This document shows positions 1,904-49,626 of a DNA stretch of 64,000 bases, piece after piece. The position numbers were made by a program, and so were the translations under genes. This stretch comes from a virus. Below the pieces are notes generated by a model that ran no database searches, was not told where the DNA came from, and saw nothing but the letters and a program-made list of their open reading frames with translations. Positions within the stretch are counted from its first letter, which is position 1; the number at the start of each line of letters is the position of its first letter. The stretch covers positions 25,907-89,906 of IMG/VR virus record IMGVR_UViG_3300037189_018318; one strand, written 5' to 3'.

Positions 1904-2425
1904 TTATACTCCTGGTCTATTACTAATTATAGGTGAAGATGTTTGGGAGGTCACGGATGGATGTATTTTTAAAGAAATATCTTCTTTAGAATAAATTGCT
2001 GAATTATTTTCGTGTTCAAATACCTCAACCTTGTCTACCCAACATCTGTCACCGTATTGCTCTTTAATAAAATCCGATGCTGTTTTAAAACACCATTCTG
2101 CTGCTCTTTCTATACCAACACCTTCTGGCATGATTCTTAAAACTGCAGCTCCCCTTTCTTCAAGTTGCTTCCAAAGATCAAGACAAGGATCATCTGCTGC
2201 AACACAAAGCGTATGATCAAATTGATTTTGTAATATATCTTTAAGAGGTTTAAGACCCCCGAAATCTACCGCCCAATTACGAAAATCTAATTCTTTGCAA
2301 CCAAACCAAAATTTGGCTTTGAGTTGATATCCATGTACATATTGACAATGACTATGTTGTGCTCCGTATTGTCTAAAAGCACATGATCCTAATTCTATTA
2401 CTTTTGTTGATGTATAATTACTCAT
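1904..2425 (-). CDS. queD: QueD-like 6-carboxy-tetrahydropterin synthase
   Basis: Second step of preQ0 synthesis: converts 7,8-dihydroneopterin triphosphate to 6-carboxy-tetrahydropterin. The chosen ATG at 2425 (MSNYTSTKVI) gives 173 residues and overlaps the end of uvsX by 8 bases. A longer frame reaches 2467 but would run inside uvsX. QueD/PTPS features are the HSHC then VHGY block (zinc His plus catalytic Cys) near residues 24-33, LDFRNWAVDFGGLK near 46-60, and FDHTL with a downstream Glu-rich EVFEHEN. The usual HGH zinc motif reads HGY here; from memory this is common in phage QueD-like proteins. Works with QueE (10125), QueC (47021) and DpdA (4714). No GTP cyclohydrolase (folE) is seen in the window. 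Confidence 0.85.
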   Translation of the reverse strand: MSNYTSTKVIELGSCAFRQYGAQHSHCQYVHGYQLKAKFWFGCKELDFRNWAVDFGGLKPLKDILQNQFDHTLCVAADDPCLDLWKQLEERGAAVLRIMPEGVGIERAAEWCFKTASDFIKEQYGDRCWVDKVEVFEHENNSAIYSKEDISLKIHPSVTSQTSSPIISNRPGV

Positions 2426-3584
2426 TTTCTTCGTTATTATTTTCCTCTGATAAAAAATCGTCTTCAATATCTACTTCTTCTGTTATAGAAGCATTATTAA
2501 AACAAAGTTGGGTCTTAAGTTTTTCTTCTAAAGATGGAAGAATTTTATTCCAAACTTCTTCATCATCCTTCCAATCTTTGAAGAAGCCTAATATTTCTCC
2601 ATTAAAAGAATGTCGGTGACCCACTTTCTCCAAGACACCGTATCCTTCACACATTTCAAGTAGACCGGAATATTTGTTAAGACCCGTTCTAAAATTCAAA
2701 TACATTTCTGTTTCTAAATAAGGAGGAACAAATCGATTTTTAGTAGTAAGAGCTCTAAGAGTCAATCCATTAATATCTTTGGATAAAGGAGTAACGTCTG
2801 TATTAGCATCTTTATTTTTACTATCGCTTGACCTTTCTGCCTTCTTAGCCATTTGAACAATAACTGATGCCATATATAGAGGTCCAGATCCTCCTGCTTG
2901 TTTTTTGATAGCTGAAGGATGAAGCTGGGAAGGATCCTCATAGATATGATTAGTAAAAACTACTGGACAATTAGCCTTAGCAGCTGAATGTGTAATAGCC
3001 CTCATCATACTCTTTAAAGCCTTGGCTCTGTTTCCCATGTCTGGAGTGTCAGAACCTTCATCAATCTTTTTCTTTTCTTGGGTTGTAATAAGATTACCTA
3101 AAGAATCAATAACAATAAGTACCTTACCTTGTAAACCTTTTTGTATAACATTGTCTAAAAATTTAACAATTTGATTGCGACAATTTTCTGTTATCTCGCT
3201 TGGAACGTGTTTGATTTTAGAAGAATCACATCCTAAACGTGAAGCTGTTGCTTCATCCAATGCACCTTCTGTATCAAAATATGCAACATGCATACCTTTC
3301 ATAAATTGTGCATTAGCCATTACTTTATTACACATAAGAGTCTTACCACAAGATTCTGGCCCAATAAATCCAGTCAATCTTCCCATAGGAATTCCACCAT
3401 AAAGTGAACCTGAAATAATTGCATTTAAAGCATAACTTCCAGTGTCAATCCAATCTTTTACAGTTGAAAGACTATTTTTATCAAGATATGCTGCTTCAGG
3501 ATTTAAATCCTCTAAAACCTTAAAGGCATCTTCAATAGTGCCACCGGTTACTTCTTCTGTATCTGTTTTCTTTTTGTATGCCAT
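2418..3584 (-). CDS. uvsX: UvsX, RecA-like recombinase
   Basis: Strand-exchange recombinase for recombination-dependent replication and repair. With ATG 3584 (MAYKKKTDTE) it has 388 residues, the normal size. A longer frame to 3611 begins with a non-ATG codon and hydrophobic residues and is unlikely. Walker A GPESCGKT is near residues 75-82 (RecA has GPESSGKT), the Walker B strand VLIVIDS near 150, and a FTNHIYEDP segment matches the RecA L2/motif region. The C-terminus is acidic (NNEENE). It is followed by queD with an 8-base overlap. A terminator at 3597-3636 separates it from the upstream gene, so uvsX probably has its own promoter or depends on read-through. Confidence 0.95.
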   Translation of the reverse strand: MAYKKKTDTEEVTGGTIEDAFKVLEDLNPEAAYLDKNSLSTVKDWIDTGSYALNAIISGSLYGGIPMGRLTGFIGPESCGKTLMCNKVMANAQFMKGMHVAYFDTEGALDEATASRLGCDSSKIKHVPSEITENCRNQIVKFLDNVIQKGLQGKVLIVIDSLGNLITTQEKKKIDEGSDTPDMGNRAKALKSMMRAITHSAAKANCPVVFTNHIYEDPSQLHPSAIKKQAGGSGPLYMASVIVQMAKKAERSSDSKNKDANTDVTPLSKDINGLTLRALTTKNRFVPPYLETEMYLNFRTGLNKYSGLLEMCEGYGVLEKVGHRHSFNGEILGFFKDWKDDEEVWNKILPSLEEKLKTQLCFNNASITEEVDIEDDFLSEENNNEENE

Positions 3585-3596
3585 ATAATATATAAT

Positions 3597-3636
3597 AACA
3601 AAAAAGCTCAACTTGTCAATGACAAATTGAGCTTTA
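3597..3636 (-). terminator. Rho-independent terminator upstream of uvsX
   Basis: Arms 3603-3617 and 3621-3635 form a 15-pair stem with a 3-base loop. One position pairs G-U on the minus strand (C-A if read on plus). On the minus strand the stem is followed by a T-rich run (TTTTTTGTT). It ends transcription of the highly biased gene 3658-4047 before uvsX. Orientation follows from the wobble pair and the U-tract. Confidence 0.8.
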
Positions 3637-3657
3637 AAGTGTTAAACTAGATCTTTT

Positions 3658-4047
3658 TTACTCATCAAAAAGATTAATCACTCCGCCCTTACCACCAGGG
3701 GAAGCTGGTTCAGAAGGTGGAACAAAGATGTTACTCTTATTAAACATCTGGCTGTATTGTGCCTGAAGTCGGAAATCAATAGCTTCAATACTGGTCTCTG
3801 TAATGTTAGCCTTCTTGTAGAAGAAGGTGACATCATCCGTCTTATCAGGAAGGAACTCCCTGAAAAAGATTGGAAGCAACTGAACAGACATTCTACCGGA
3901 TTGATCCTGTGGTACTACATTAAGTACAACTGGATTCTTCAAGGCAAGAACACTGTCAGTGGTCTGATCAGCAACGACTTCACCCAAAAGGGTGCGGCCA
4001 ACTGTGTCTAGGATGGTTGTTAGGTTTGTTGTTGTTGTTTCGCTCAT
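3658..4047 (-). CDS. Unknown 129-residue protein, probably highly expressed
   Basis: Begins MSETTTTNLT at an ATG and ends in a short acidic tail, NLFDE. A likely all-beta body (VVLNVVP, MSVQLLPIFFREFLP) is followed by a Pro/Gly/Ser-rich linker and the acidic tip. No enzyme motif is visible. Its codons are richer in G/C and in C-ending codons than its neighbours, in a style close to the major capsid gene, and it has its own strong terminator downstream. Both suggest an abundant product. Neighbour to uvsX, so a single-stranded-DNA or recombination accessory role is possible, but an abundant structural protein fits as well. I believe similar proteins occur in other marine T4-like phages, without a known function. 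Confidence 0.8.
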   Translation of the reverse strand: MSETTTTNLTTILDTVGRTLLGEVVADQTTDSVLALKNPVVLNVVPQDQSGRMSVQLLPIFFREFLPDKTDDVTFFYKKANITETSIEAIDFRLQAQYSQMFNKSNIFVPPSEPASPGGKGGVINLFDE

Positions 4048-4057
4048 AAAATATTAT

Positions 4058-4723
4058 TTACTTGGTTTCTTTTATAGGCAACGGATTCCATTGCAAAGCT
4101 TCTGAAGTATTTGGAAAGATTTCTGCAAAAATATTTCTAATAGCTAATGCTATTTCTCTATGTTCTTTTTGCGTATCTTCTTTAGTTCTTAAATCTAAAT
4201 AATGTATCCAAGATCTTAAAGTACCACTCATATATAAAGTAGTTTGTGTACAAAGAGGTAAAATCATTCTAGCGGTTTCTCTCGCAGCTCCTCTTTCTAA
4301 GAGATTATCATATAATTTAGCAGATTCTATTAAATGATTTTGTATTAATTTTAAATCTTCTTCGCCCAGTGGAAGAGTATCTGTGCTGGATTGTCTATTT
4401 TTTTCAGATTGTATTCTCAATTCAAAAGGTTCAAAATCTGTAACAGGACTATATCTTTGACTAAATTCTTGAAAAGAAAAACTTCTGTGACGAAGAATTT
4501 GAGCTGCTATAGCTCTGGATGTTTTAATTTCAACTGTAACACTAACCATTTCATATGGAGACCAGTGTTTATGTTCAATTAAATATTTTAATAATTTAGG
4601 TGCTGTCTGTGTATTTAATTGATTAGAAGGGTTGGATACCCTTGCACAATAAACCACAAAATCTTCTGGTGATAAAACACCTTCTATTATAGGTTCTGTA
4701 ATACCAACTATTCTTACTTGCAT
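4058..4723 (-). CDS. thyX: ThyX, flavin-dependent thymidylate synthase
   Basis: Makes dTMP from dUMP using methylene-tetrahydrofolate, FAD and NADPH. 221 residues, normal size. The ThyX signature RHRxxSxxxxSxR is intact (R78 H79 R80, S83, S88, R90), followed by RYSPV. A downstream TARMILPLCT segment fits the substrate-binding helix, and SWIHYLDLR the conserved C-terminal block. ATG start at 4723. It overlaps the end of the DpdA-like gene (4714-5583) by 10 bases, so the two are translationally close. With dUTPase at 60865 it supplies thymidine nucleotides to phage DNA synthesis. Confidence 0.95.
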   Translation of the reverse strand: MQVRIVGITEPIIEGVLSPEDFVVYCARVSNPSNQLNTQTAPKLLKYLIEHKHWSPYEMVSVTVEIKTSRAIAAQILRHRSFSFQEFSQRYSPVTDFEPFELRIQSEKNRQSSTDTLPLGEEDLKLIQNHLIESAKLYDNLLERGAARETARMILPLCTQTTLYMSGTLRSWIHYLDLRTKEDTQKEHREIALAIRNIFAEIFPNTSEALQWNPLPIKETK

Positions 4724-5583
4724 AAAAGGATCTCTTTAAAAAGATTAATATTCTCTTCTACATATTCTAATTGAGAATCTGATATTTCATTTTCAAAAAT
4801 ATCTACCATCTTCTCTGTAATTTTATGTTCTAAATTAACATTATTTTCATAACTCTTAAGATTATATCCCATTAATACTGGATGTGAGGTATCAATTGTT
4901 TCTATAAAAGAATAAAGTTCTCCTTTATAATTTATAAATTCAGTCGGCAAACCACATCCAAGTAAATGATGTGGTTTGGTATAATCTATAATACCATCTT
5001 CAATAAATTGTTGTAAAAGAATAGGTCTAAAAACTGAATAAGCAGTTGGTTTCCACACTTCTTTTATTCTTTTTTCATTATTAAGAGGACTAGAAGTAAT
5101 AGCTGTGAAAACATCTCTGTCCATTTTTTCTAAAGCTTGCTGCCAAAAATAATCATAACCAAAGCTAATAGCTATTTTATCTGCATGTTCTCTCATGAAT
5201 AAATAGGAATCCTTTAATTCCTGGTAATTTTTTCCTTGGATAACTCCTATAGCCTTTCCGCGGAAAGTTCCTCTATCAAATTTTACTAGGAACTCTTCAA
5301 AACTCTTAATATTTGCTTCATAATTCTGAAAAACATCTGGTATTATATACTCATCCGGCTCTAATTCATAGAGCCAATTAATAAATTTATCATGGTTATA
5401 AGCTTCACCAAGTTCATAAAGACTATTATCTAAAATAATTTTGCGTCCTAACTTTTTTGATTTAAAGAAAAAATCTCTATATTCTTTATTTTCTTCCAAT
5501 AAATGAACTAATGCATAGTCATAATCGGTTAATCCTCTGACTCTTTCCATTATTTTTAATGGTGCTTCGTGTGCTACTAACAT
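4714..5583 (-). CDS. dpdA: DpdA-like DNA 7-deazaguanine transglycosylase (TGT fold)
   Basis: 289 residues from ATG 5583 (MLVAHEAPLK); a TTG nine bases further upstream is an alternative. The residues follow the tRNA-guanine transglycosylase pattern in order: ILDNSLYE (Asp near 52, like the TGT base-pocket Asp), PDVF (Asp near 83), GVIQG (Gln near 116, as in TGT AIVQGG), GCGLPTEF (near 209-216), and IDTSHP (Asp near 231, the likely nucleophile). The tRNA-binding zinc site of bacterial TGT is absent, and the protein is shorter, as in phage DpdA. DpdA exchanges guanine in DNA for a preQ0-type base. QueD, QueE and QueC in the same window support this over a tRNA role. Downstream thyX overlaps by 10 bases. 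Confidence 0.8.
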   Translation of the reverse strand: MLVAHEAPLKIMERVRGLTDYDYALVHLLEENKEYRDFFFKSKKLGRKIILDNSLYELGEAYNHDKFINWLYELEPDEYIIPDVFQNYEANIKSFEEFLVKFDRGTFRGKAIGVIQGKNYQELKDSYLFMREHADKIAISFGYDYFWQQALEKMDRDVFTAITSSPLNNEKRIKEVWKPTAYSVFRPILLQQFIEDGIIDYTKPHHLLGCGLPTEFINYKGELYSFIETIDTSHPVLMGYNLKSYENNVNLEHKITEKMVDIFENEISDSQLEYVEENINLFKEILLCK

Positions 5584-5605
5584 ATATTTCAATTATTATA
5601 CTCTA

Positions 5606-8179
5606 TTAAGAAAATAAATCAAACAAATCTGTTTGAACTTCTGTGCCTAAAGCTGGTATATCCCATCCGATACACTCATAAACTCTTTGAATAGGAGGTG
5701 CAACCATCTTATCGAACATCATTTGGTGATTAATTTTGATGTGCTCGTTGAGTTCATCTGGGTATAAATCTATAAATGCCATTACTTTATAATTAAATGG
5801 ATTTTTAGATGCATAAAAATATTTCATTTTCATACCGCTTGTAATAGATTCATGCAAATGGTCAATCTTATAATGCTTTAATAAGTGATTATAATGAATA
5901 GCTGCCTTGGCATGAATAGGAGTTCCTTTACCAATCTTGCCAAAATCATCCATTTTAGCTTCTTGTTTTTCTAAATCTGAAATTTTACTTCTAATAGAAA
6001 GCTCTTCAGCTTTCATTTCTTTAAATTTGTTATAAGATTCTCTAAAAATTTCATTAGACTTCTTTTTATCCTCTGAAAGCATTGCTAATTCAATAACATT
6101 TTTAATTAATTTTTTAACAGTATCTGATATAGATGAACGAGCTACTTCAACACCTACATATTTAAAAGGGTCTTTCGGTATATAACCTTCTTTATCTAAA
6201 ATATGGAGTATATACCTTTTCTTTTCCATGAAGAGACCCACGTCACAAATGGTTTCTTGTTTAAATACAAATCTAGGATCTGAAGATTTTAATTGTTCTC
6301 TAGCCCAAACTAGAATTTCTGTATTGAGATAGGTATCAATTTCTTTTGTTATTTCCCTTGCTTCATCTGTCAATTTACCATCTTCAACAAGTTTTATATT
6401 TAAATGTGTAAGAATAGGTTGTATGGAGAAATATGCTGAATCAGTGTCACCATAAAGATATATTTTTTCTTTATCAACTTTGCAACCTTTCTTTAAGGCA
6501 TATTCATAAACGATCTCAGCTGCTTGTTTAACTACAGACTGACCCGTTAACGTAATACTAGCTGAATGATCTATATCAAATAATGGTGAATATTTTTGAG
6601 CAAATACTCCATAGATGGAATTCAATACAAGTTTATAAACATTTTGTTGTGTATCTAAATTAAGAATTTCTTGTTCTATTTTATTTTTTTCATCTTTATC
6701 TTTAATAGAACGTATCAATTTCTCTCTTTTAATCATTTCATTCTTAGCCTCGACACGCTCTTTATATAAGCGATCAATCAGATTAGGAATGACTCCTTTA
6801 AACTTTTGTGTATATAATACGTTATATTTTGATATAGAAAGATTTTCTTTTTGTACAAGTCTATTAAATTTCTCTTCTGAAAGAGTTACGGTTTTTTCAT
6901 TGGCTAATTTAATAGTATATTGTTTATCTTCTATAGTGGTTATTTTGCCTATTTTTGTCTCTGGAGATATATTAAGAGTAATGATAGTGTTGGGATATAG
7001 ACTATTTGCATCATAACTTACAACAGATTTACTCAAACCGCGTTCCGGTTCATGCACATATCCTCCAACATATTCATCTCGTTCTCCTTCATTTTTAAAA
7101 GTTGGTATTTTATATCCCTGTATAAAGGCTTGATGTGCTACAGCTCCGGTAATCATGGATACTTTGCCCATGGCCTGTTCAAAAGGAATAAAACCTTTAT
7201 AAGAAAGAGTACGAATCAATTTAATAAATTTTAATTTTTCATCAAGCTTAACTAAAATTCTTACGTCCTGAATATTATAATCAACAAACAACTCCCAATT
7301 ATCAATTGATAATTGGGCAAGATTGGATCCACCTGTATCAATCTTTCCTTCTTTTAATTCATATTCACCTACATAATTAAGAGAATAAGATTCTCTATCA
7401 CCTCTTGAAAAGGTTTTATAAACTTCCATGTAATCAATGTTACTCACACCTCGGATGTACCAACGATTGATCATTTTACCAAATTTATTCATGGCCACAT
7501 TCTCTCTATAATAGAGAGAATTTACCGGTGAAAGTCTAGCTGCATCTTCTTCTCCAAATAGATTATGTAATCTATTCATGATATAAGGAATATCAAATCC
7601 TTCTCCATTCCAAGTACAAAGCATATCTGGAGGATCTTTCTCCCAAAATTCTAAAAATGCTTGAAGCATTTCTGTTTCTCTTGAATGGCAAAAATAGGTT
7701 ATATTTTTTTCTTTAGGTTTATAAGGTTTCTGCCCCCAAGAATAATAATGATTGTTTATAGAATCATAAAGAGTAATAAGATTAATAGGATCCTTAGCTA
7801 ATTCTGGAACCGGAAATTCATTAGGAGAATAGGTTTCTATATCCAAAAAGTAAACCTTTAACGGATGCTGACCAAAGTCTAATTTGTGAATTTCATCTTT
7901 ATAAGTTGAAAGAAGAAAATCCTGTTCGCAACTAAGATTATTAAATAATCTTTTAATAGGTGTCTCATTGACAAATTTACTCCTATCAAACTGATTTTTA
8001 AATGTAACTTTCTTTAACGGTGTGTTAAAGATCGAAGTAGCATCATGAGCTGATGAAGACTCAATATAAAGATGAGGTTCGTAATCAGCCACAAGCTTAA
8101 TGCGATTACCTTTTTCATCCCAAGTCCAAAGATGAATAACTCCTTGTCTTCCATCATAAAAAATATTTCTCCATGCCAT
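5606..8179 (-). CDS. 43: Family B DNA polymerase (T4 gp43-like)
   Basis: 857 residues, ATG start (MAWRNIFYDG). Replicative polymerase with proofreading. The N-terminal 3'-5' exonuclease has FLDIETYSP (Exo I, Asp/Glu near 113-115), WNGEGFDIPY (Exo II, near 190) and YNIQDVRILV (Exo III, near 300). The polymerase palm has YDANSLYPN (motif A, near 390), an LNSIYGVFAQ motif B, and YGDTDSAYFS (motif C, near 575). The C-terminus ends LFDLFS, a plausible clamp-binding tail. It sits between the DpdA-like gene and an unknown 178-residue gene on the same strand. All catalytic motifs are intact and there is no intein. Confidence 0.96.
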   Translation of the reverse strand: MAWRNIFYDGRQGVIHLWTWDEKGNRIKLVADYEPHLYIESSSAHDATSIFNTPLKKVTFKNQFDRSKFVNETPIKRLFNNLSCEQDFLLSTYKDEIHKLDFGQHPLKVYFLDIETYSPNEFPVPELAKDPINLITLYDSINNHYYSWGQKPYKPKEKNITYFCHSRETEMLQAFLEFWEKDPPDMLCTWNGEGFDIPYIMNRLHNLFGEEDAARLSPVNSLYYRENVAMNKFGKMINRWYIRGVSNIDYMEVYKTFSRGDRESYSLNYVGEYELKEGKIDTGGSNLAQLSIDNWELFVDYNIQDVRILVKLDEKLKFIKLIRTLSYKGFIPFEQAMGKVSMITGAVAHQAFIQGYKIPTFKNEGERDEYVGGYVHEPERGLSKSVVSYDANSLYPNTIITLNISPETKIGKITTIEDKQYTIKLANEKTVTLSEEKFNRLVQKENLSISKYNVLYTQKFKGVIPNLIDRLYKERVEAKNEMIKREKLIRSIKDKDEKNKIEQEILNLDTQQNVYKLVLNSIYGVFAQKYSPLFDIDHSASITLTGQSVVKQAAEIVYEYALKKGCKVDKEKIYLYGDTDSAYFSIQPILTHLNIKLVEDGKLTDEAREITKEIDTYLNTEILVWAREQLKSSDPRFVFKQETICDVGLFMEKKRYILHILDKEGYIPKDPFKYVGVEVARSSISDTVKKLIKNVIELAMLSEDKKKSNEIFRESYNKFKEMKAEELSIRSKISDLEKQEAKMDDFGKIGKGTPIHAKAAIHYNHLLKHYKIDHLHESITSGMKMKYFYASKNPFNYKVMAFIDLYPDELNEHIKINHQMMFDKMVAPPIQRVYECIGWDIPALGTEVQTDLFDLFS

Positions 8180-8188
8180 ATTAAGATA

Positions 8189-8725: not shown

Positions 8726-8769
8726 ACATTAATAGTATGATAAAACATTAGGAAAACCAACAAAATAAT

Positions 8770-10089
8770 TTACACCTTTTGATCCAAGTTATTTGCTATA
8801 AGAGTTGGGCTCTTTTCATTTCTTTCTTTAGATCCAAAATCTGTAAAATACAAAGCCTCATATTCATCTAAATGATCTTCTAACCAAAGACCTTCTGTAA
8901 ATTTACGAGACTTATCTGAGAATTTCATATATCGATCAAAATCTGATGTGAGATATTCTAATTGCTGAATAAGATCTGATCCGTTTTTGAATGAAAAATC
9001 TGCACCCTCATATGTGCAAATATCTTGATAAGCGCCTGGCATACCAAAAGCTCCGGCTTCAATCATTTTAATATTGCTCTTAGATTTATTAAAAACATTA
9101 TCTTGGAGAGGTGCAAATGAAACATTACAGTCTGTGTCATACAATGCTTGAGGTAAATCCGGAAGAGGAGACCATTCTAGGTATTCCATTTCACCATTAT
9201 CAATATAAGGTTTAACAGCAAGAGGGAAACATCCCTTCCAAACAAATTTAAATTTCTTGCGAGCTTTAATAATATCTTGTACTACATGCTCAAAATCATC
9301 CTTCATTCCAGTTTTATTGACTACATCTATATGTGTGCCAGAACCTGCATAAAGAACGCGAGGACGCTTTTTATTTTTTTCAAAAAGCTCTATAATTCGA
9401 TTTCTATTGTAGTAGCGATCAAGCCAAGATTTAGGCGCATAATTTGGAATAACTGTGATATTTTTATTGCCTGTCTTATCTATATAATAATCTTTCATAT
9501 ATTGACAAGTGACGGATATTTCATCCATCATACTCATAATATCTAGAATACTAGAGATAATATCTTGACTTACAAAAGCTTCTTTACAACGATTATAATC
9601 TGGAATATCATCTTTAAAAACTATATCGTCTACTTCATAAATCATGCGAAAACCCATATCCTTTTTAACTCTCGTAAGTTCTCTAATAAACTCTCTCTGA
9701 ACTGGAGTTGCTTGTCTTTGCATTCTAATAGCCTTAATGCCTTGATAAAATCTAAGATCCAATACCATGCATGTAAGACCTGAAATACAGGCTTTCTGAT
9801 ATTGATTTAAATTAAGCTCCGGCCAAATCATTCTCCAAAACCCGCATCCACCATAATCAGCATAATAATTTAGGGCTCTAGGTAAATTACTTTCTGGCAT
9901 CTCAACTGGTGGCGGAGATGGCATACTAATGGGATTGGCTGCTACATAAGAAAAATTGGGTGTTCCGTGAGGTAATGCAGGAGCATTGGGTATACCTGCA
10001 CTAAATGCTTTGTATTCATAAACTATACGATTACTAGTATCAATACTATTTGAAGCAGGAGAAGCATTATTCTTAATTTTTAAAGCCAT
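8770..10089 (-). CDS. GT-B fold glycosyltransferase (GT4-like)
   Basis: 439 residues, ATG start. The N-terminal 70 residues are low complexity, rich in Pro, Ala and Asn. Next comes a Rossmann-type domain with DLRFYQGIKAIRMQRQ and MIYEVDDIVF. The C-terminal domain has RVLYAGSGTH, FVWKGCFPLA, a DCNVSFAPL motif and IKMIEAGAFGMPG. That last motif matches the E-x7-E-type nucleotide-sugar site of GT4 enzymes, as does the spacing. The acceptor is unknown. It lies downstream of queE and outside the two sugar islands, so a role in DNA or virion glycosylation are both open. C-terminal Asn/Lys-rich tail is not part of the fold. Confidence 0.75.
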   Translation of the reverse strand: MALKIKNNASPASNSIDTSNRIVYEYKAFSAGIPNAPALPHGTPNFSYVAANPISMPSPPPVEMPESNLPRALNYYADYGGCGFWRMIWPELNLNQYQKACISGLTCMVLDLRFYQGIKAIRMQRQATPVQREFIRELTRVKKDMGFRMIYEVDDIVFKDDIPDYNRCKEAFVSQDIISSILDIMSMMDEISVTCQYMKDYYIDKTGNKNITVIPNYAPKSWLDRYYNRNRIIELFEKNKKRPRVLYAGSGTHIDVVNKTGMKDDFEHVVQDIIKARKKFKFVWKGCFPLAVKPYIDNGEMEYLEWSPLPDLPQALYDTDCNVSFAPLQDNVFNKSKSNIKMIEAGAFGMPGAYQDICTYEGADFSFKNGSDLIQQLEYLTSDFDRYMKFSDKSRKFTEGLWLEDHLDEYEALYFTDFGSKERNEKSPTLIANNLDQKV

Positions 10090-10124
10090 ATAGTTAAATT
10101 TATCTATCTACTATCTAAAATCAA

Positions 10125-10883
10125 CTAGACTTTAAGGGCTTTATCCCAAACAAGAAGGTGTAATCTAGGACTAAAATTTACATGCATTGCTTTAGCATAC
10201 TCTGCAACAACTGGAGCCTTTTCTATATGCTCTTCTCTAGAACCACAGCAAGGCATAAACCAAATACGGTCTCTAATTGCATTAATATGATGCTTATCGT
10301 CAACATACTTTTCCCAAATTTCATTAATATCTTCTGATTTGTTAATAACAAATTTAAACCCTGATCCATTTCTTGCATGCCATTTAAGAACCTCTGGCTT
10401 GTAGGTTTTATCTTCTGGATCCCCGTTTGATCGGAGTTTAGGTGACGTTGTAAAAGTGGCATTAAAAGCATCTTTCCAAACTGGATCTGGCATTAAAGTA
10501 GCATTGGTTTCAAAATCAATACGCGGAACAATTTTATATTTCTCTATAAATGCTTGAATGAATTTAATTAATTGCTTCTGTTGAATAAGCGGTTCACCGC
10601 CTGTAAGCTTAAGAATAGCATTATGTGCTAAATGATTGATATAACCATTATCTTCCATAAGTTGAAAGATTTCAGCAAATGTCATTTTATTCTTAACTGT
10701 CCAAGAAATAAATGAATCACATCCATTAGGAGAATCTTCTGAAGCAAATCCAATACACGTCAAATTACACATTGACATGCGCATAAACACTGAAGGTTGT
10801 CCTACAAATTCACCTTCACCTTCAATAGTATAAAAAACTTTATCATCCGACAAAAATAATGTCTCTGTATTAATATCAATCAT
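10125..10883 (-). CDS. queE: QueE-like 7-carboxy-7-deazaguanine synthase (radical SAM)
   Basis: Third step of preQ0 synthesis: radical ring contraction of 6-carboxy-tetrahydropterin to 7-carboxy-7-deazaguanine. 252 residues, ATG start. The N-terminal FYTIEGEGEFVGQPSVFMR is a hallmark of QueE. The cluster cysteines are in MCNLTC followed eleven residues later by GCDSF, so the spacing is Cx3C-x11-C rather than the compact radical-SAM CxxxCxxC. LTGGEP (near 94-99) binds SAM. A C-terminal FSPRLHLLVWDKALK block matches the family end. Located between gp46 and the GT-B gene. It completes QueD, QueE and QueC in the window. Confidence 0.9.
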   Translation of the reverse strand: MIDINTETLFLSDDKVFYTIEGEGEFVGQPSVFMRMSMCNLTCIGFASEDSPNGCDSFISWTVKNKMTFAEIFQLMEDNGYINHLAHNAILKLTGGEPLIQQKQLIKFIQAFIEKYKIVPRIDFETNATLMPDPVWKDAFNATFTTSPKLRSNGDPEDKTYKPEVLKWHARNGSGFKFVINKSEDINEIWEKYVDDKHHINAIRDRIWFMPCCGSREEHIEKAPVVAEYAKAMHVNFSPRLHLLVWDKALKV

Positions 10884-31725: not shown

Positions 31726-32403
31726 ATGATATCATATTTAGGAAATGATAAAGATCCTAATCATCTTTATCAGGAAGATTTGGGTAAACAATTATATAAT
31801 GAAATAATAACTTTAGATTCATATTATTTAAGAGAATTTTTTAAAAATGATAATAGAGAAATTAATACTATTATAGATATAGGAGCAAATATAGGTTACT
31901 ATACATTATTAGCATCTATTTTATATCCCTATGCTAATAAAATCTTACTAGAACCGAATCCGGAAAATGTAAAAGTATTAAATGCTAATTTCAAAGATTT
32001 CCAAAATATAAACATTATACCGAAAGCTTTAGGTGACAAGTCCAAGGTCAGTATGAAATTTGATCAAAGATGGAGTGGTTCTGATAGCGTTGTCAACGAC
32101 ATAAACGGTAATATAGATACTATAGAATTTAAAGATATTATACCACGTAATATTGGAAATTTTATATTAAAAGTAGATTGTGAAGGTGGTGAAAAATTTT
32201 TATTAAAGTCGGATCCTAGTTTTTTTAAAAACTGCGTTTATTTTACTTGTGAATTTCATGAAAATGAATATAATAATATTACAGAATGGGAGCACTGGTT
32301 AAAAAATACCTTTGCGTTCAATTACAATGTAATCAAAAAACCGCTTGGTAGGGATATGAATAATAATTTATATCTTTATTACGCTTACAAAAAAACAAAA
32401 TGA
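31726..32403 (+). CDS. FkbM-type methyltransferase
   Basis: 225 residues, ATG start. IIDIGANIGYYTLLASIL near 46-63 (SAM motif I), ILLEPNPENVKVLNANF near 75-91, NIIPKALGDKS and NFILKVDCEGGEKFLLKSD near 142-160 form the complete FkbM series, with the D-x-E-G-G-E signature intact. Probably O-methylates a sugar. It overlaps the sulfotransferase start by 4 bases (ATGA), showing they are co-translated. Confidence 0.9.
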   Translation: MISYLGNDKDPNHLYQEDLGKQLYNEIITLDSYYLREFFKNDNREINTIIDIGANIGYYTLLASILYPYANKILLEPNPENVKVLNANFKDFQNINIIPKALGDKSKVSMKFDQRWSGSDSVVNDINGNIDTIEFKDIIPRNIGNFILKVDCEGGEKFLLKSDPSFFKNCVYFTCEFHENEYNNITEWEHWLKNTFAFNYNVIKKPLGRDMNNNLYLYYAYKKTK

Positions 32404-33224
32404 AAAACATATTTTTTAATTCCTCAATGCCTCGTAGTATGAGTACATTATTTCAATGTATTCTCAATCAACATCCAGAAATTCAAGCAACACAAACCGA
32501 TCCAGTTTTAGAATATCTGTATGGGGCTAGAATAAATTATACAGATACCCCAGAAGCTAAGGCCATGGATAGAGACCTTGCTTTAAGGACATGGAGAGGG
32601 TTTTGTCTCGGTGGACTAAATGGATATGCGGAAGCCTATACAGATAAGCCCAATCTTTGTATTAAAACTCGAGGAGGCACTATTCACTATAAATGGTTTG
32701 AAGCCTTTTTGCCTTATAAACCAAAAATGATTTGTTTAGTAAGGAATTTAAAAAGTATTTTTGCATCTATGGAAAAGATCTATAGAAGAAATCAAGAATT
32801 CCATCAATCAATTCAAAATCATTCTGAAATGAGAGGTACCAACACAGCAAAAAGAATTGATACCTGGATTGCAGGACCACCTCTTGGACTTGCCTTGGAA
32901 AGACTTCAACAGACCTTTTTAGAAGGTATTAATAAAGATGTTCATTATATAAGAGCTGAAGATTTAACAAGCTATCCACAAAAAGAAATGGATAAGGTTT
33001 ATCAATATTTGGGTATTGAGTCATTTAAACATGACTTTGATAATGTTGAGCAGACCGTTAAAGAGGATGATTCAGTTTATGGTTTAACACCAGATTTACA
33101 TACTATTAGACAAAAGGTTCAACCTCTAACACCAGATTATAATACTATCTTAGGTAAGCAAGTATGTGATTGGATTGATAATAACTTTGCCTGGTATCAG
33201 CAAGGATTTGGCTATACAAAATAA
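32400..33224 (+). CDS. Sulfotransferase-family protein
   Basis: 274 residues, ATG start. The N-terminus NIFFNSSMPRSMSTLFQCIL is the P-loop-like 5'-phosphosulfate-binding site for PAPS. KMICLVRNLKSIFASMEKIYRR near 113-133 is the 3'-phosphate-binding motif (LVRxxxxxxxS). A C-terminal YDWIDNNFAWYQQGFGY helix fits the family end. It would transfer sulfate to a carbohydrate hydroxyl. G+C is a little higher here than in the minus-strand island. No PAPS-synthesis gene is seen, so the donor would come from the host. Confidence 0.85.
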   Translation: MKNIFFNSSMPRSMSTLFQCILNQHPEIQATQTDPVLEYLYGARINYTDTPEAKAMDRDLALRTWRGFCLGGLNGYAEAYTDKPNLCIKTRGGTIHYKWFEAFLPYKPKMICLVRNLKSIFASMEKIYRRNQEFHQSIQNHSEMRGTNTAKRIDTWIAGPPLGLALERLQQTFLEGINKDVHYIRAEDLTSYPQKEMDKVYQYLGIESFKHDFDNVEQTVKEDDSVYGLTPDLHTIRQKVQPLTPDYNTILGKQVCDWIDNNFAWYQQGFGYTK

Positions 33225-41254: not shown

Positions 41255-41259
41255 CTTAT

Positions 41260-43577: not shown

Positions 43578-43592
43578 TATAGTTGATATTAA

Positions 43593-43616
43593 TACCTACT
43601 ACCATAAAGTAGGGTA
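43593..43616 (+). repeat. Small hairpin before the gene at 43616
   Basis: TACCTACT (43593-43600) pairs with AGTAGGGTA (up to 43616) apart from one bulged base. It covers the ribosome-binding region and the first base of the next ATG, so it could regulate its translation. Confidence 0.35.
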
Positions 43617-43891
43617 TGACCGAAAAGGTTTATAATCTTAATAATTTAACTCAAAACCAAATTAAATTAATTCTTGAAGCTTTGCTTTATGCTGGTTCTG
43701 TCGACATTAACAGTGCCTGGTATAAAGAAGAAATAGAAAATATGGTTGATTTGGCTATTGATATTAGAAAAATTTCTTCTAATATTCCTTTAGAAAGTAT
43801 ATACGCCTTTGAAGAAGAATATTTTGATTCAACTACTAAAAAAATTGTTGAATTCTTTCCAGAGATTTTATATAATAAACCAAATTTATGA
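43616..43891 (+). CDS. Unknown 91-residue protein
   Basis: ATG start. MTEKVYNLNNLTQNQIKLILEALLYAG then an acidic helical body ending FFPEILYNKPNL. No metal or catalytic motif. The opening helix pattern 'LTxxQIxLILxALLY' is common in small regulatory or accessory phage proteins. It overlaps the P-loop kinase start by 4 bases, so the two are co-translated. Confidence 0.65.
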   Translation: MTEKVYNLNNLTQNQIKLILEALLYAGSVDINSAWYKEEIENMVDLAIDIRKISSNIPLESIYAFEEEYFDSTTKKIVEFFPEILYNKPNL

Positions 43892-44520
43892 AAATAGCTG
43901 TTTCAGGTGCTCAAAATACTGGTAAGTCAACTTATATTAAAGACTTTTTAAAAAAATGGACCATGTATGAAACTCCTAAAGAATCCTACAGAGATCTTCT
44001 TAAGGAAAAAAATTTACCTCATAGTACAGAAGGCAATGAAGAATCTCAAAGAATTATATTAGATTTTCTTATTGATCAGTGTCAAAAATATTCTAAAGAA
44101 GATAATGTAATTTTTGATAGATGTGTATTAGATAATTTAGCATATTCATCTTGGTTAAATCTTAATGGAAAGGTTTCTGATAAATTTCTAGATGAATCTA
44201 GAATTATTGTAAGAGAAACATTAAGCATGTTTGATATTGTTTTCTTTGTACCTTTAACTAAAGTAGCCCCTATTGATATAGAAGAAGATGGATTAAGAAA
44301 CACAGACCCTGTGTTTAGAGAAGAAATTGATAATATCTTTAAAGTATTTGAACAATCTTACCATCAAGGTGATGGGAGAGTGTTTCCTAAAAATGACAGT
44401 CCTCCTATTATAGAAATTTATGGTAATCCAGAACAAAGAATAATGCTTACAAGTCTTTATATCAATGAAGACGGTAAACAATACGGTGAAGAAGAAACTT
44501 TAATTAAGCCCGCCTTCTAG
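43888..44520 (+). CDS. P-loop NTPase/kinase, AAA_28-like (NadR/Ttd14-type)
   Basis: 210 residues, ATG start. Walker A SGAQNTGKST near 6-15, an NVIFDRCVLDNLAYSSWLN block near 71-90 (DR-type motif), and IVFFVPL near 113-120 as the Walker B-like strand. The family includes nicotinamide-ribose and nucleoside kinases. A paralog lies at 58683-59228 with the same three blocks, which is unusual. Substrate unknown. Co-translated with the upstream gene. Confidence 0.8.
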   Translation: MKIAVSGAQNTGKSTYIKDFLKKWTMYETPKESYRDLLKEKNLPHSTEGNEESQRIILDFLIDQCQKYSKEDNVIFDRCVLDNLAYSSWLNLNGKVSDKFLDESRIIVRETLSMFDIVFFVPLTKVAPIDIEEDGLRNTDPVFREEIDNIFKVFEQSYHQGDGRVFPKNDSPPIIEIYGNPEQRIMLTSLYINEDGKQYGEEETLIKPAF

Positions 44521-44533
44521 GTAAGTAAAAGAA

Positions 44534-45358: not shown

Positions 45359-45389
45359 TATTCCGTTTAATTTATAATATAATATACAG

Positions 45390-46352
45390 GTGAGACAATT
45401 ACCTGGTAGTTATATTTTAAATAAATTTTACACCTATTCAGGTGCGCCTGTGCATAACAAATATACAGGCATATATAATGCTTCGTGTCCAGTTTGTAGA
45501 GAAGGCAAAAGTTTTTTAAAAAAGAAAAGACTATACTATTATCCTACTACTAATACATTTTATTGTTTTCATTGTAGCAAATCTTGGAATGCATTTAATT
45601 GGATAGAAGCTGTAAGTGGTATGTCTCGAGAGGAGATAGAAGCAGAAGTCTTATCAGGCAATACTTCTTTAGATATAACAGATGATATTAAAAATATTAA
45701 GACAAAGAAAAGAGAATTACCTTCTTTGCCTTTAGATTCTATTAATCTTTGTGACCCCTTACAAAAACAATATTACGGAACTAATGTTTATTTTCAAAAA
45801 GCACTAGAATATATTACAGAAAGAAAATTAAACACAGCAATTAATCGTAGTTCTTCTTATTTTATAAGTCTTACAGATTATTTTCATAAAAATAGACTTT
45901 GTATACCTTATTATAATAGAGATAAAAAAATTGTATTTTATCAAACAAGATCTTTAGATGGTTCAGAACCTAGATACCTTAACAAAGTAGGATATGATAA
46001 AACTATTTTTGGAATAGACAGGGTAGATACTTCTTTAGATTATTTATTTTTATTCGAAGGTCCTATGGATGCCATGTTTGTAACTAACGGAGTATCTGTA
46101 GCCGGTCTTGTATTAACCAATGAGCAAGAAAAACAATTAATAGAGTTTCCCTTTCATGAAAAAATCTGGGTTTTGGATAATCCTAGATTTGATGAAGCTG
46201 CCAAAGATAATATTTATAAATTAGTATCTAACAAACAAAAAGTCTTTAAATGGCCTGCTAATAAACCATATAAAGACTTTAATGAATGGTGTGTTAAAGA
46301 AAATGTAAATTCAATAGATTACAATTTTATTTTAAAAAATTTGTATTCTTAA
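45390..46352 (+). CDS. 61: DnaG-type DNA primase (T4 gp61-like)
   Basis: 320 residues from GTG (an in-frame stop lies just upstream and no ATG fits). Makes RNA primers for the fork, partner of gp41. N-terminal zinc finger: CPVC near residue 31 and CFHC near 55. Toprim domain: LFLFEGPMDAMF near 215-226 (Glu) and WVLDNPR near 258-264 (Asp). RLCIPYYNRDKKIVFYQTRSLDG lies between. Size and layout fit T4-like primases. Its stop overlaps the convergent gene's stop in a TTAA. Confidence 0.9.
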   Translation: MRQLPGSYILNKFYTYSGAPVHNKYTGIYNASCPVCREGKSFLKKKRLYYYPTTNTFYCFHCSKSWNAFNWIEAVSGMSREEIEAEVLSGNTSLDITDDIKNIKTKKRELPSLPLDSINLCDPLQKQYYGTNVYFQKALEYITERKLNTAINRSSSYFISLTDYFHKNRLCIPYYNRDKKIVFYQTRSLDGSEPRYLNKVGYDKTIFGIDRVDTSLDYLFLFEGPMDAMFVTNGVSVAGLVLTNEQEKQLIEFPFHEKIWVLDNPRFDEAAKDNIYKLVSNKQKVFKWPANKPYKDFNEWCVKENVNSIDYNFILKNLYS

Positions 46353-46993
46353 GAAGTGACAGATTGTTCTTGATCTCTTAACTTTTTAGGAGCTGTAATA
46401 ATAAATGAATTTAATACTTCTTTTAATTTATCCAATTCACCTGTGGTACGAGTAATATTGTCAGAAGATTTACGCATGATACCACGAAGTAAACTTCCAG
46501 CCTTATCATTATCTGATAAAAATTTGTGTAAAGAATCTATTTTAGGATCATTTAATCTAGCAGTAAATTCATCTAATATATTTGACCACTTTTCAATTTC
46601 TTCAATATTTTTGCTTATAACTTCTGCCGGAATACCTTCAATTTCATATGCATCTTTTGGTGTTTCTGGTTCTAATGATTTTTCAAAAGCTTCTTTGTCA
46701 GATTCTGGAGTAAACTCTTCTGGAGTTTTTTCATCCGGTTCAGATTCTGGTGTAATTTCTTTTTCTTCTGCTTCGCCGATTAAATAAGATAAAAATCTGC
46801 CAGCAAATGGAATTTCATAATTTTCCTCATGACAACAATTGCAATCTCCTATACATTTGCACATGGGTTTGTAATTTGAATCTAGTATTCTTTTTACATC
46901 CTTTTCCACCTTTGAATTCTTAGCTGGTATAACATTTTTTACAGAATATTTTTTCTGTGCTTTAGGTTTAAATTTGACTTTCTTGTTGTTCAT
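46349..46993 (-). CDS. Unknown protein with a Cys cluster and acidic middle
   Basis: 214 residues, ATG start. The N-terminus is basic (MNNKKVKFKPKAQKK). CKCIGDCNCCHEE near 44-56 carries five cysteines and a His, suggesting zinc binding. Residues 75-120 are acidic with repeated P-E/E-S-E segments. The C-terminal 90 residues are helical. No family recognised. The only minus-strand gene here, divergent from queC with 27 bases between the starts. Confidence 0.7.
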   Translation of the reverse strand: MNNKKVKFKPKAQKKYSVKNVIPAKNSKVEKDVKRILDSNYKPMCKCIGDCNCCHEENYEIPFAGRFLSYLIGEAEEKEITPESEPDEKTPEEFTPESDKEAFEKSLEPETPKDAYEIEGIPAEVISKNIEEIEKWSNILDEFTARLNDPKIDSLHKFLSDNDKAGSLLRGIMRKSSDNITRTTGELDKLKEVLNSFIITAPKKLRDQEQSVTS

Positions 46994-47020
46994 CGTTAGA
47001 ATATATACTATATTTACCTT

Positions 47021-47737
47021 ATGAGTGTCAAAAAACCAAAAGCAATTGTAATTTATAGTGGTGGTTTAGATTCTACGTGTCTTTTATATAAAATTCACAA
47101 AGATAGAGAAGTTATAGCATTAATCTTTAATTATGGACAAAGGCATTCCATTGAAATAGACAATGCAATTAATAACTGTAAGAAATTAGAAATACCATAT
47201 AAGGTATTAGACATTTCTTTCTTTAAAGATATAGCATCTTCCTCTGCTTTATTGGATTATAATAAAGAAATTCCCAATATCAGGGATATAGCAGGTCATG
47301 CCCAACCTCCGACCTATGTCCCTAATAGGAACATGATGTTTTTATCAATTGCCACAGCAGCTGCAGAGTCAGCAGGGGCAGATAAAGTTTATTATGGAGC
47401 AGCTGAGGTAGACACCCATAGTGGTCATTGGGATTGTTCTTTAGATTTTTTAAAATATATTAATGAAACTATTTCTCTTAATAGAGAACATCAAATCAAA
47501 ATAGAAGCACCTTATATAACATATTCTAAGGCAGATATTATTAAAGATGGTATTAGTAATAATGTAGATTTTAATAACACCCATACCTGTTATAAGGGTG
47601 AAGAAATTGCATGTGGCACTTGTACAGCATGTTCTTCTCGTATTCAAGGTTTTCTTGAGGCTGGATATATTGATCCTAAACAATATGTAATATCAGATAA
47701 AATACCATGGAAAGATCACAACTGCCAAATCGTATAA
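47021..47737 (+). CDS. queC: QueC-like 7-cyano-7-deazaguanine (preQ0) synthase
   Basis: 238 residues, ATG start. Converts 7-carboxy-7-deazaguanine to preQ0 with ATP and ammonia. PP-loop YSGGLDST near 12-19, NYGQRHSIEI near 39-48, PNRNMMFLSIATAAAES near 101-117, and C-terminal zinc cysteines in CYKGEEIACGTCTACSSR near 190-210. All key residues are intact. The next two genes (StrF-like glycosyltransferase, Gat) follow tightly, so they form one operon with queC. Confidence 0.95.
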   Translation: MSVKKPKAIVIYSGGLDSTCLLYKIHKDREVIALIFNYGQRHSIEIDNAINNCKKLEIPYKVLDISFFKDIASSSALLDYNKEIPNIRDIAGHAQPPTYVPNRNMMFLSIATAAAESAGADKVYYGAAEVDTHSGHWDCSLDFLKYINETISLNREHQIKIEAPYITYSKADIIKDGISNNVDFNNTHTCYKGEEIACGTCTACSSRIQGFLEAGYIDPKQYVISDKIPWKDHNCQIV

Positions 47738-48396
47738 AAACACAGCATATTGTTTGTGCTACACCTCTTTCTCTAGAAGATTTTTATGAGAAAAGCCAAT
47801 TGGGTTTATTTATAGACAAATATAATTTCCAAAAACAAAGCACAATAGTAGCTAACAACAAAGAAGGATTGCCTAAAGTTTACAATTCTTTTATAACTGA
47901 AGAAAACAGAGACAAAAATATTATATTTGTTCATGATGATGTTCTTATAGAAGATCTTTTCTTTGCCGAGAAATTAGAAATTGCTTTTGAGAAATATGAT
48001 ATTATAGGATTAGCTGGTTCTAAGGTTTGTGATTTAGATAGCATTAACCCGGCTTGGCATCAAATGTGTGAAAAGAAAGACATGGTCGGAGAAGTAGCAC
48101 ATGCTCATAATAAAAAAGTATGGACTTCTGTATTTGGACCTACAGATTCTAGAGCCCTTATTCTTGATGGATTGTTTATAGGTGTCAATGTTGCTCGCTT
48201 ATTAAAAACACAAACATTTTTTGATGAGGATTTTGATTTTCACCATTATGATATTTCTTTTTGTTTAAAAGCCAATGCTAATAAATTAAAAATGGGTGTA
48301 GCTCCGATCAGGGTTATTCATTTTGGATTAGGTGATAGTATGAATACAAAAGAATGGAGAGAGAGTGCAGCTCGTTTTAAATTAAAGTATAATTGA
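47707..48396 (+). CDS. StrF-like family 2 glycosyltransferase (Glyco_tranf_2_5)
   Basis: 229 residues, ATG start, overlapping the queC end by 31 bases. GLPKVYNSFIT near 58-68, IIFVHDDVLIED near 76-87 (the DD metal site), IIGLAGSKVCDL, ALILDGLFIGVN, FFDEDFDFHHYDISFCLKANANKLKMGVAPI near 176-206 (acceptor-side block) are typical of the StrF/GT2_5 family. It lies between queC and gat, which is unusual for a glycan-island-type gene. A role in decorating the modified base is possible, but not shown. Confidence 0.8.
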   Translation: MERSQLPNRIKTQHIVCATPLSLEDFYEKSQLGLFIDKYNFQKQSTIVANNKEGLPKVYNSFITEENRDKNIIFVHDDVLIEDLFFAEKLEIAFEKYDIIGLAGSKVCDLDSINPAWHQMCEKKDMVGEVAHAHNKKVWTSVFGPTDSRALILDGLFIGVNVARLLKTQTFFDEDFDFHHYDISFCLKANANKLKMGVAPIRVIHFGLGDSMNTKEWRESAARFKLKYN

Positions 48397-48399
48397 TTT

Positions 48400-49053
48400 A
48401 TGTGCGGAATATACGGAAATATAAATCATGCTGAATTTTATAGACTTTACAAATTAAATAAATCTCGTGGCAGTTATAGTACTGGGTTTCTTTTTATTGA
48501 TAATAAAGAATATGAAGTGAAGAAAACCAATGAAGATGTTTCTTATTATCCTATAGCTTTAAAAAAATATTATTTAGGACATAACAGAGCCCCTACTACA
48601 GATGAAAATGGCAAAGGATTGACTGGTTGTCACCCTTTTATCTATGGTAAAGCTATAGCAGCTCATAATGGTATTATTTCCAATACAGATATTTTAGAAA
48701 ATGAATATAAAATTAAATTTGATGTAGATAGTCAATGGATACCTTTTCTTTATGATTATTTTAAAAGGAATAATAATCAATCAGAAAATGCATTCCGTCT
48801 CGCTTTATTGGAATTAGAAGGAACATATGGAATTTGGCTTTATGATATAGATGAAGAAATTGTATTTGTATCAAGAAGTGATAATACAGTTTACTGGGAT
48901 GATGAAAAAATATCCTTTACATCCATTAGAGATGATATGCATAAAAATTTAATGCCGCAGGGCGCTATTTACAAAAAAGAAAATAATGAACCGTTTAAAG
49001 ATATAAACGAAAACAATAGGTTGAATATTAAACAGAAGTATTTTATTATATAA
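48400..49053 (+). CDS. gat: Gat-type class II glutamine amidotransferase
   Basis: 217 residues, ATG start. The N-terminus MCGIYGNINH gives the nucleophile Cys2 after Met removal. RGSYSTG near 27-33, GHNRAPTTDENG near 66-77, AAHNGIISNTD near 92-102 (glutamine site) and DSQ near 114-116 complete the class II (Ntn) set. The glutaminase domain stands alone; no synthase domain follows. In dG+ phages a Gat domain is fused to QueC. Here gat is separate, two genes downstream of queC, which supports amidation of preQ0. Confidence 0.85.
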   Translation: MCGIYGNINHAEFYRLYKLNKSRGSYSTGFLFIDNKEYEVKKTNEDVSYYPIALKKYYLGHNRAPTTDENGKGLTGCHPFIYGKAIAAHNGIISNTDILENEYKIKFDVDSQWIPFLYDYFKRNNNQSENAFRLALLELEGTYGIWLYDIDEEIVFVSRSDNTVYWDDEKISFTSIRDDMHKNLMPQGAIYKKENNEPFKDINENNRLNIKQKYFII

Positions 49054-49056
49054 GTT

Positions 49057-49626
49057 ATGAGTTATTTTAAACAAGATTACAATGGTGATTTAATCCACAA
49101 GAGATTTGGATACGAGCATTTTAAAAAAGATTATAATCCCTTAGGAGTTATTATTGCCTTTAGAGGCAATATGGATGTTACAACCAATCTCATTGATTTA
49201 GAAGATAAAATTAATAATGATTTTATTTATTCAGATGATGCTTTAAACTTTTGCTGGGAAATCCCTAATATTTGTCCTATCGGTGCAGTTTTCTTTCAGA
49301 GACTTTTTGCTCGTTATATCGGAGATGAATTAGCTAGCGGTCGTTATGGAAAATTAAATGTTAAGGTAGATGGAGATGATATAATGATCATTAGACCAGG
49401 CGACGCAAAGTACGGCAAAGCTAGTGTTAGTATTACTATGGTTACTAATAATGCAGCAGTAGGACATCTTGGTTTAAATATTAAAGCAGGACCTAAGGCT
49501 CCTACCTTTGCATTTTCACTCTTATTAGATGATGCAGATACTGCTTGGCTAACCAATAGAGTTAAAGAAATATTTTATGAGACTATTAAAGATTGTTTCA
49601 CCGCCACTACAAAGGTTTGTGTTTAA
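49057..49626 (+). CDS. DUF366-like protein
   Basis: 189 residues, ATG start, 3 bases after gat. GVIIAFRGNMDVTTNLIDLEDKINNDFIYSDDALNFCWEIPN near 31-72 and QRLFARYIGDEL followed by SVSITMVTNNAAVGHLGLNIKAG near 125-148 resemble the DUF366 family of archaeal proteins. This match comes from memory and is not confirmed. Its place in the queC-gat operon suggests a step of base modification or salvage. Its stop overlaps the next start (TAATG). Confidence 0.6.
   Translation: MSYFKQDYNGDLIHKRFGYEHFKKDYNPLGVIIAFRGNMDVTTNLIDLEDKINNDFIYSDDALNFCWEIPNICPIGAVFFQRLFARYIGDELASGRYGKLNVKVDGDDIMIIRPGDAKYGKASVSITMVTNNAAVGHLGLNIKAGPKAPTFAFSLLLDDADTAWLTNRVKEIFYETIKDCFTATTKVCV

Follow-up and report, generated by a model that had tools for sequence, protein, structure and literature searches.

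A 64,000-nucleotide stretch of virus DNA (the window; bases 25907-89906 of the 89,906-base IMG/VR virus record IMGVR_UViG_3300037189_018318) carries the genes QueD, QueE and QueC for the synthesis of 7-cyano-7-deazaguanine (preQ0), a separate glutamine amidotransferase (Gat) and the DNA-guanine transglycosylase DpdA. From the families, folds, invariant residues and synteny of these genes we consider it likely that the phage modifies its own DNA by means of a phage-encoded preQ0 route and DpdA, and that the modification ends at dPreQ0 or dADG, the deoxynucleosides of the 7-cyano and the 7-amido base, respectively. Judged by its sequences, the 7-deazaguanine pathway is probably complete and functional. 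An earlier note on this DNA had proposed such a pathway from the same five genes. All five were found in their places by family matches, alignments and a predicted fold, and gene content, families and the fold of DpdA support the pathway as a whole.

The whole source record is referred to as G000. It stems from an uncultured T4-like virus of bacteria, with a T4-like capsid protein of about 35% identity to cyanophage gp23. The record G001 (176,807 bases) agrees with it at 99-100% in the genes that were compared; it probably covers more of the genome of this same phage. Pathways of this kind are known; the combination of FolE2, a split QueC/Gat, a DpdA of the CP220 class and conserved glycosyltransferase (GT) and DUF366 genes is unusual. 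A probably complete pathway for swapping guanine is now placed in an uncultivated T4-like clade, with FolE2 as its first enzyme in part of the clade.

We infer from these genes what the enzymes do, that Gat works with QueC, which base results, how much of the guanine is replaced and that the base protects from restriction. In the proposed route, FolE2 would convert GTP to dihydroneopterin triphosphate, and QueD, QueE and then QueC would lead to preQ0 or its amide precursor, the separate Gat probably supplying QueC with glutamine-derived ammonia. DpdA would swap guanine already present in the phage DNA for the free base by a mechanism of the tRNA-guanine transglycosylase (TGT) type with a covalent Asp intermediate. 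This exchange would take place after or during replication, possibly at most or all guanine positions. As the literature suggests, the modified guanine plausibly serves as camouflage against host enzymes and allows the phage to escape restriction.

Table 1. Pathway genes and candidate accessory genes of the window phage. Positions are those of the window unless another record is named.
Feature	Position	Strand	Evidence
FolE2	G000:C1:22564-23472 (= L003:7564-8472); outside the window, 2.4 kb left of its start	-	PF02649 2.9e-64
QueD (6-carboxy-tetrahydropterin synthase)	1904-2467	-	Pfam PTPS 1.3e-13 (above cut-off); PHROG QueD-like 6.6e-35; alignment
DpdA, DNA-guanine transglycosylase, CP220/immuto class	4714-5592	-	tblastn relatives; predicted TGT fold; invariant Asp residues
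Second conserved glycosyltransferase, candidate accessory gene, between QueE and DNA polymerase	8770-10089	-	PHROG 7162 4.2e-22
QueE (7-carboxy-7-deazaguanine synthase), radical SAM (S-adenosylmethionine)	10125-10883	-	PHROG QueE-like 8.6e-42; alignment
QueC (preQ0 synthase)	47021-47737	+	PF06508 1e-58; TIGR00364 179 bits, cut-off 150; tree
GT-A-type glycosyltransferase, QueC/Gat neighbour	47707-48396	+	PF13712 1e-8, above cut-off; HDD motif invariant in 17 rows
Gat, separate class II glutamine amidotransferase	48400-49053	+	GATase_6 1.9e-5, just under cut-off; intact active-site residues
DUF366 protein, biotin/lipoate-protein-ligase fold, candidate accessory gene	49057-49626	+	PF04017 1.7e-21

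DpdA and the early enzymes of the pathway

No scanned family library (Pfam, NCBIfam, PHROG) names the DpdA protein: it has no Pfam TGT match, it reaches 11.8 bits (E 0.082) with the NCBIfam model tgt_general at a cut-off of 47.6, and a phmmer search of solved structures returned no relative up to E 1. Tblastn gives about 37% identity both with the protein annotated as "DNA guanine transglycosylase" in Flavobacterium immuto phages and with proteins of Campylobacter phages that are labelled hypothetical. Such relatives occur in 24 of the 50,697 records of the isolate phage collection that was searched (Campylobacter 14, Bacillus 5, Flavobacterium 4, Weizmannia 1), and in IMG/VR the class is represented by at least 563 matching stretches.

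An AlphaFold model built from 40 sequences (predicted local distance difference test, pLDDT, 93) aligns with the TGT of Z. mobilis over 233 residues (Z 17.4, root mean square deviation 3.1; Foldseek 1.4e-8), and by this prediction DpdA is a triosephosphate isomerase (TIM) barrel of the TGT type. D55, D86, D234 and Leu211-Gly212 are invariant in the 40 aligned rows, and Gln119-Gly120 is nearly so. By motif, not by a residue map, we take D55 and D234 to be the counterparts of D102 and D280 of TGT; DpdA thus appears to keep the likely catalytic Asp residues. The earlier note had named, as one finding that would refute the pathway, a DpdA that groups with tRNA transglycosylases and lacks the nucleophile Asp. 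The DpdA here does not reach the tRNA-TGT family models, and its two likely catalytic Asp residues are invariant.

A profile of the 40 DpdA sequences detects immuto_64 (4e-111), gp056 of CP220 (1e-82) and Youna2 and BSP7 (about 1e-24); it shows no detectable homology to ORF390 of nt-1 or to either the CAjan or the JenK1 DpdA (E 0.05-0.2). We take the CP220/immuto class to be the one called DpdA3, which Cui and co-workers reportedly tied in 2023 to full replacement of guanine. For CP220 and CPt10, 100% of deoxyguanosine (dG) is reported as dADG (PMC8306585). Because of this related DpdA, the assumption of the earlier note that only part of the guanine is replaced may be too cautious. A survey of 2019 counted the Campylobacter phages as DpdA-less (PMC6884629); the DpdA homologue detected here in CP220 would revise this count.

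The early steps are encoded as well. The earlier note had seen no folE and suggested that the host may supply the first step. Canonical FolE (PF01227) indeed has no match anywhere in the whole source contig; however, the GTP cyclohydrolase step is encoded on the same contig, and on G001, in the form of FolE2. Its NCBIfam match (207 bits) falls just below the cut-off of 215. FolE2 is present in 11 of the 44 records searched, including G001, and in three records of the isolate collection, all unannotated. QueD scores 27.5 bits with the NCBIfam QueD model (cut-off 89), and its true start, judged from the alignment to its relatives, is probably an internal ATG at 2425. In place of the usual HGH it has an HGY motif, a change that immuto and phiSM share in the alignment. 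The third residue of HGH, which we take to be a zinc-ligand His, is therefore not conserved in the window QueD. QueE matches NCBIfam models at values as low as 1.4e-14, under their cut-offs, and an insertion interrupts its CX3C..C motif in the alignment. In profile searches, as the earlier note had proposed them, QueC (Pfam, TIGR00364) and QueD (Pfam) lie above the cut-offs; the matches to the NCBIfam models of QueD and QueE, to GATase_6 and to tgt_general stay below. The statement that the key residues are kept needs a qualification for QueD.

The genes had been described as spread over both strands. They are dispersed, but in an ordered manner, forming two co-directional groups. On the minus strand QueD, DpdA, a GT and QueE lie amid the replication genes UvsX, ThyX, DNA polymerase and gp46, an order that the related loci L087-L091 maintain within their extent; on the plus strand QueC, the other GT, Gat and DUF366 are side by side. 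This dispersal would fit an expression of the pathway alongside replication.

The split QueC/Gat pair and the probable modified base

QueC contains the motifs SGGLDS and CX7CX2CX2C; the Cys motif is given as C(x)8CxxCxxC in PMC13329287, so that of the window QueC is one residue shorter. Gat and QueC are two separate genes and not a Gat-QueC fusion. In Gat, Cys2, Arg23, His89-Asn90-Gly91 and Asp110 are invariant in all 20 aligned rows, in agreement with what we take to be the signature of class II (N-terminal nucleophile, Ntn) amidotransferases, an N-terminal Cys together with Arg, Asn, Gly and Asp. In a tree of 35 QueC rows the window protein falls into a branch of 22 (support 100/97) together with pf16, Vibrio 2.275.O, nt-1 and other environmental phages. 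Three fused Gat-QueC proteins form a branch of their own (100/100) that excludes the window QueC, and the ten remaining rows are unfused. All 22 rows of the window clade, the three cultured phages included, have a Gat gene at most about 2 kb away from QueC, and the pair is kept together at more than one genome position. No Gat was found at the loci of the ten unfused QueC outside the clade in stretches of 3.6 to 40.8 kb. Members of the split-Gat family are ORF392 of nt-1, pf16_77 and NVP2275O_473 of Vibrio (profile E 1.8e-37 to 4.1e-55). In the records of cultured phages these genes are annotated as hypothetical or as "nucleophile aminohydrolase", ORF392 and pf16_77 only as hypothetical. With the two-gene unit recognised, the role of Gat becomes testable in laboratory phages that carry these two genes.

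What could the separate Gat be needed for? One possibility is that QueC and Gat form a two-protein archaeosine synthase and that the base in the DNA is deoxyarchaeosine (dG+), to which Gat had been taken to point in the earlier note. In phage 9g, dG+ is the product of the fused Gat-QueC (PMC6884629), and the split Gat has its catalytic residues intact and remains close to QueC. However, the window QueC lies outside the Gat-QueC branch, and against a profile built from split Gats the fused Gat domains reach only 2e-10 to 3e-15, compared with 2e-37 to 4e-55 for nt-1, pf16 and 2.275.O. Moreover, QueF adjoins or lies near the QueC/Gat pair in G027, G028, G031, G032, pf16 and 2.275.O. Because phages whose QueF consumes preQ0 also have the pair, we read the split Gat as the likely donor of glutamine-derived ammonia to QueC and not as a mark of dG+, which we regard as a doubtful product here.

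QueF (PF14489) was not found in G000, G001 or G005. A PurN-like formyltransferase, which we term DpdN-like, gave 37 matches and comes after DpdA in many sister loci; neither the window and the remaining stretches of G000 nor those stretches of G001 that lie beyond G000 gave a match. As neither enzyme was found, we take the route to end at the 7-cyano or the 7-amido level. Unless the base is decorated further, it is most likely dPreQ0 or dADG. Phages with the minimal set FolE-QueD-QueE-QueC-DpdA are reported to carry dPreQ0 (PMC6884629).

A pathway that boosts preQ0 or queuosine for the host tRNA and leaves the DNA unmodified, as Hutinet et al. suggest for phages with preQ0 genes and without DpdA (PMC6884629), is very unlikely for the window phage: its DpdA fails to reach the tRNA-TGT family models and is of the class found in CP220, the DNA of which is reported to be fully dADG (PMC8306585). 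Finally, QueC-family proteins have been repurposed for protein deazaguanylation, as Cap9 and QatC of defence systems (PMC13329287), but that QueC and Gat serve such a function here instead of base synthesis is most improbable, since QueC exceeds the TIGR00364 cut-off, matches the QatC model at 7e-5 only and co-occurs with FolE2, QueD, QueE and DpdA.

Several points weigh against a modification of the phage DNA to dPreQ0 or dADG. The phage is uncultured. In the window QueD a His that usually binds zinc is missing. For nt-1, which has a split Gat, only traces of dPreQ0, dADG and dG+ are reported (PMC6884629, Table 2), and heavy modification does not necessarily follow from these genes, though nt-1 reportedly uses another DpdA type. 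Furthermore, the 91-kb DpdA-positive record G021 showed neither QueC nor DUF366, and DpdA was not found in 5 of the 11 DUF366-positive records of at least 69 kb; in both cases the records may be fragments.

Glycosyltransferases and the DUF366 protein

The GT and DUF366 genes beside QueC and Gat had not been among the features of the earlier note. These two conserved genes possibly extend the chemistry of phage DNA bases. The clade might make a hypermodified 7-deazaguanine, in which DpdA installs a base that the GT-A enzyme beside QueC/Gat and/or the GT next to QueE glycosylates, and/or that receives an acyl or amino-acid-like group activated or attached by the DUF366 protein. We consider this unlikely; the genes allow, but do not show, such a further decorated base. 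We know of no precedent for a glycosylated or acylated 7-deazaguanine in DNA.

Of 48 records, 19 match the QueC-linked GT strongly, and each of these has QueC; G033 adds a weak match (4.8e-5). None of the isolate records matched at E 1e-3, and the GT was not found in the QueC-bearing records G027, G028, G029, G031, G032 and G038 nor in the nine cultured phages searched. Within the clade the GT lies near QueC/Gat in all 25 loci. These are 24 loci, which form 16 groups at 95% QueC identity (one of them G001, the relative of the window itself), and G025, where Gat follows QueC at 1.3 kb and the GT at 3.9 kb. Gene order within the QueC/Gat/GT set varies among the loci, and the set occupies two genome positions. 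The loci L017 and L018, which are near-identical, have a gene for a nucleotide-sugar epimerase (Epimerase 4.9e-41, GDP_Man_Dehyd 9.4e-22) between Gat and the GT; it is not bound to this site, as a third copy lies away from QueC in L114. An identification of the GT as one of the known queuosine glycosyltransferases was not adopted, its profile returning only weak matches among solved structures (2nxv, 0.0035). Many loci of the QueF type have another GT-like gene within about 1 kb past Gat. In G031 (L200:13477-14819) genes for a dCTP-deaminase-like and a GT-like protein (phrog_1574) come after QueC-Gat, and further loci of the QueF type have this GT-like gene too.

The GT next to QueE has no Pfam match. 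Of 13 fetched loci in which QueE, DpdA and a polymerase match are all visible, 12 have this GT, the exception being the immuto-like L163, and its isolate relatives are distant among the matches listed (22-27%). Glycosylation of the base by these two GTs is possible, and several further GTs of the phage may serve surface glycans. Among the open reading frames scanned, both strands carry several genes for glycosyltransferases and for methyltransferases of the FkbM type or other kinds between 12787 and 34663 of the window, and a UDP-galactopyranose mutase is encoded in G001. A possible parallel for a sugar-decorated base was noted in the Xanthomonas phage PhiXhv-15 (L239), where a fused Gat-QueC is followed by genes annotated as glucosaminyl-malate deacetylase and glycoside transferase.

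The DUF366 protein scores 77 bits in Pfam at a cut-off of 29.9. Its AlphaFold model (pLDDT 90) matches the PDB entry 2ddz with Z 21.6, the E. coli biotin repressor/ligase with Z 13.0 and, among the matches listed, other biotin ligases with 10.6-12.8; the predicted fold is that of the biotin/lipoate protein ligase superfamily. All 40 aligned rows share K121 and D108, which by motif only may correspond to the Lys and Asp of the ligases. A profile scan of the genome contigs found one DUF366 locus only; in IMG/VR there are 444 matching stretches, of which 80 were kept for analysis. In these loci DUF366 belongs to a core block, DUF366-g49593-g50026-g50418-helicase, the four partners being present in 71, 78, 77 and 75 of the 80. 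QueC shares the locus in 15 of the 80 only, and Gat and DUF366 are adjacent in some members only. Because DUF366 is a core-block gene and a neighbour of Gat only in some members, it is less closely tied to the pathway than the QueC-linked GT.

The longer ones among the 80, 20 records, were searched for QueC and DpdA. QueC was found in 14, including all 11 of at least 69 kb, and DpdA in nine; shared ancestry alone could explain the presence of QueC in the 11 long records. Conversely, 10 of 27 records searched, mostly DpdA-bearing, have DUF366. Phages with related DpdAs, namely CP220, immuto, Youna2 and BSP7, showed no DUF366. In view of this absence, the core-block membership and the few loci shared with QueC, a role of DUF366 as a dedicated pathway enzyme was not established. 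A mutual exclusion of DUF366 and QueF was refuted by seven records that contain both (G009, G010, G019, G026, G030, G039 and G040). The control genomes M. jannaschii and M. acetivorans have DUF366. Among the isolate phages it occurs in one record, MaAM05 (MW495066.1, L005), filed as a Microcystis phage; its DUF366 neighbours are SecDF, GlyS, FabI and OmpA, and the record looks bacterial.

Related systems and further genes

The Campylobacter phages CP220 and CPt10 (Firehammervirus; dADG in place of dG) resemble the window phage in their DpdA, which is of the same class, in QueD and QueC and in their T4-like gene content. Unlike the window, CP220 has no Gat match in an 11-kb stretch around QueC, and its whole record lacks DUF366, FolE2 and a QueC-linked GT; QueF is found neither there nor in the window phage. 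The Flavobacterium phages vB_FspM_immuto share the QueD/QueE/QueC/DpdA route, their DpdA being annotated as DNA guanine transglycosylase, but have FolE instead of FolE2, a QueF, a PurN-like formyltransferase beside DpdA, no Gat match in a stretch of 40.8 kb and no DUF366.

The closest counterparts of the QueC/Gat pair are in pf16 (Pseudomonas) and in 2.275.O and nt-1 (Vibrio), where QueC belongs to the window clade and a separate Gat follows. In contrast to the window phage, pf16 and 2.275.O possess QueF, and all three are without the QueC-linked GT. Phage nt-1 is reported to use DpdA2 (PMC6884629); nt-1 ORF390 and pf16_80 share phrog_10773, which may be that DpdA2. The Enterobacteria phages 9g and JenK1 (dG+) follow the same logic of preQ0 enzymes, amidotransferase and transglycosylase, whereas their Gat is fused to a distinct QueC lineage and their DpdA is without detectable similarity. 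The archaeal protein of the structure 2ddz, which we take to be PH1223, is of the same PF04017 family and fold as the phage DUF366 protein; the phage gene differs in being part of the core gene block of a phage clade.

Further genes for nucleotide or group-transfer enzymes were seen in the window and in G001. Outside the window, L228:3225-3755 (G001:21725-22255) encodes a hypoxanthine-guanine phosphoribosyltransferase above the curated cut-off of TIGR01203, which could recycle the guanine freed by the DpdA exchange. L227:17381-18379 (G001) encodes a short adenylosuccinate synthetase (PF00709 8.6e-80) that stays under the NCBIfam cut-offs for PurA and PurZ and is named 2-aminooxy adenylosuccinate synthetase in PHROG; an assignment as PurZ was rejected at 92 bits against a cut-off of 300. 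An adenosine 5'-phosphosulfate (APS) kinase (L227:10330-10872 of G001, 2e-45) and a sulfotransferase-like gene at 32400-33224 of the window (6.7e-10) make up a possible sulfation route. Two related P-loop kinase genes are located at 43888-44520 and 58683-59228 of the window, and a thymidylate-kinase-like family also adjoins DpdA in many sister loci.

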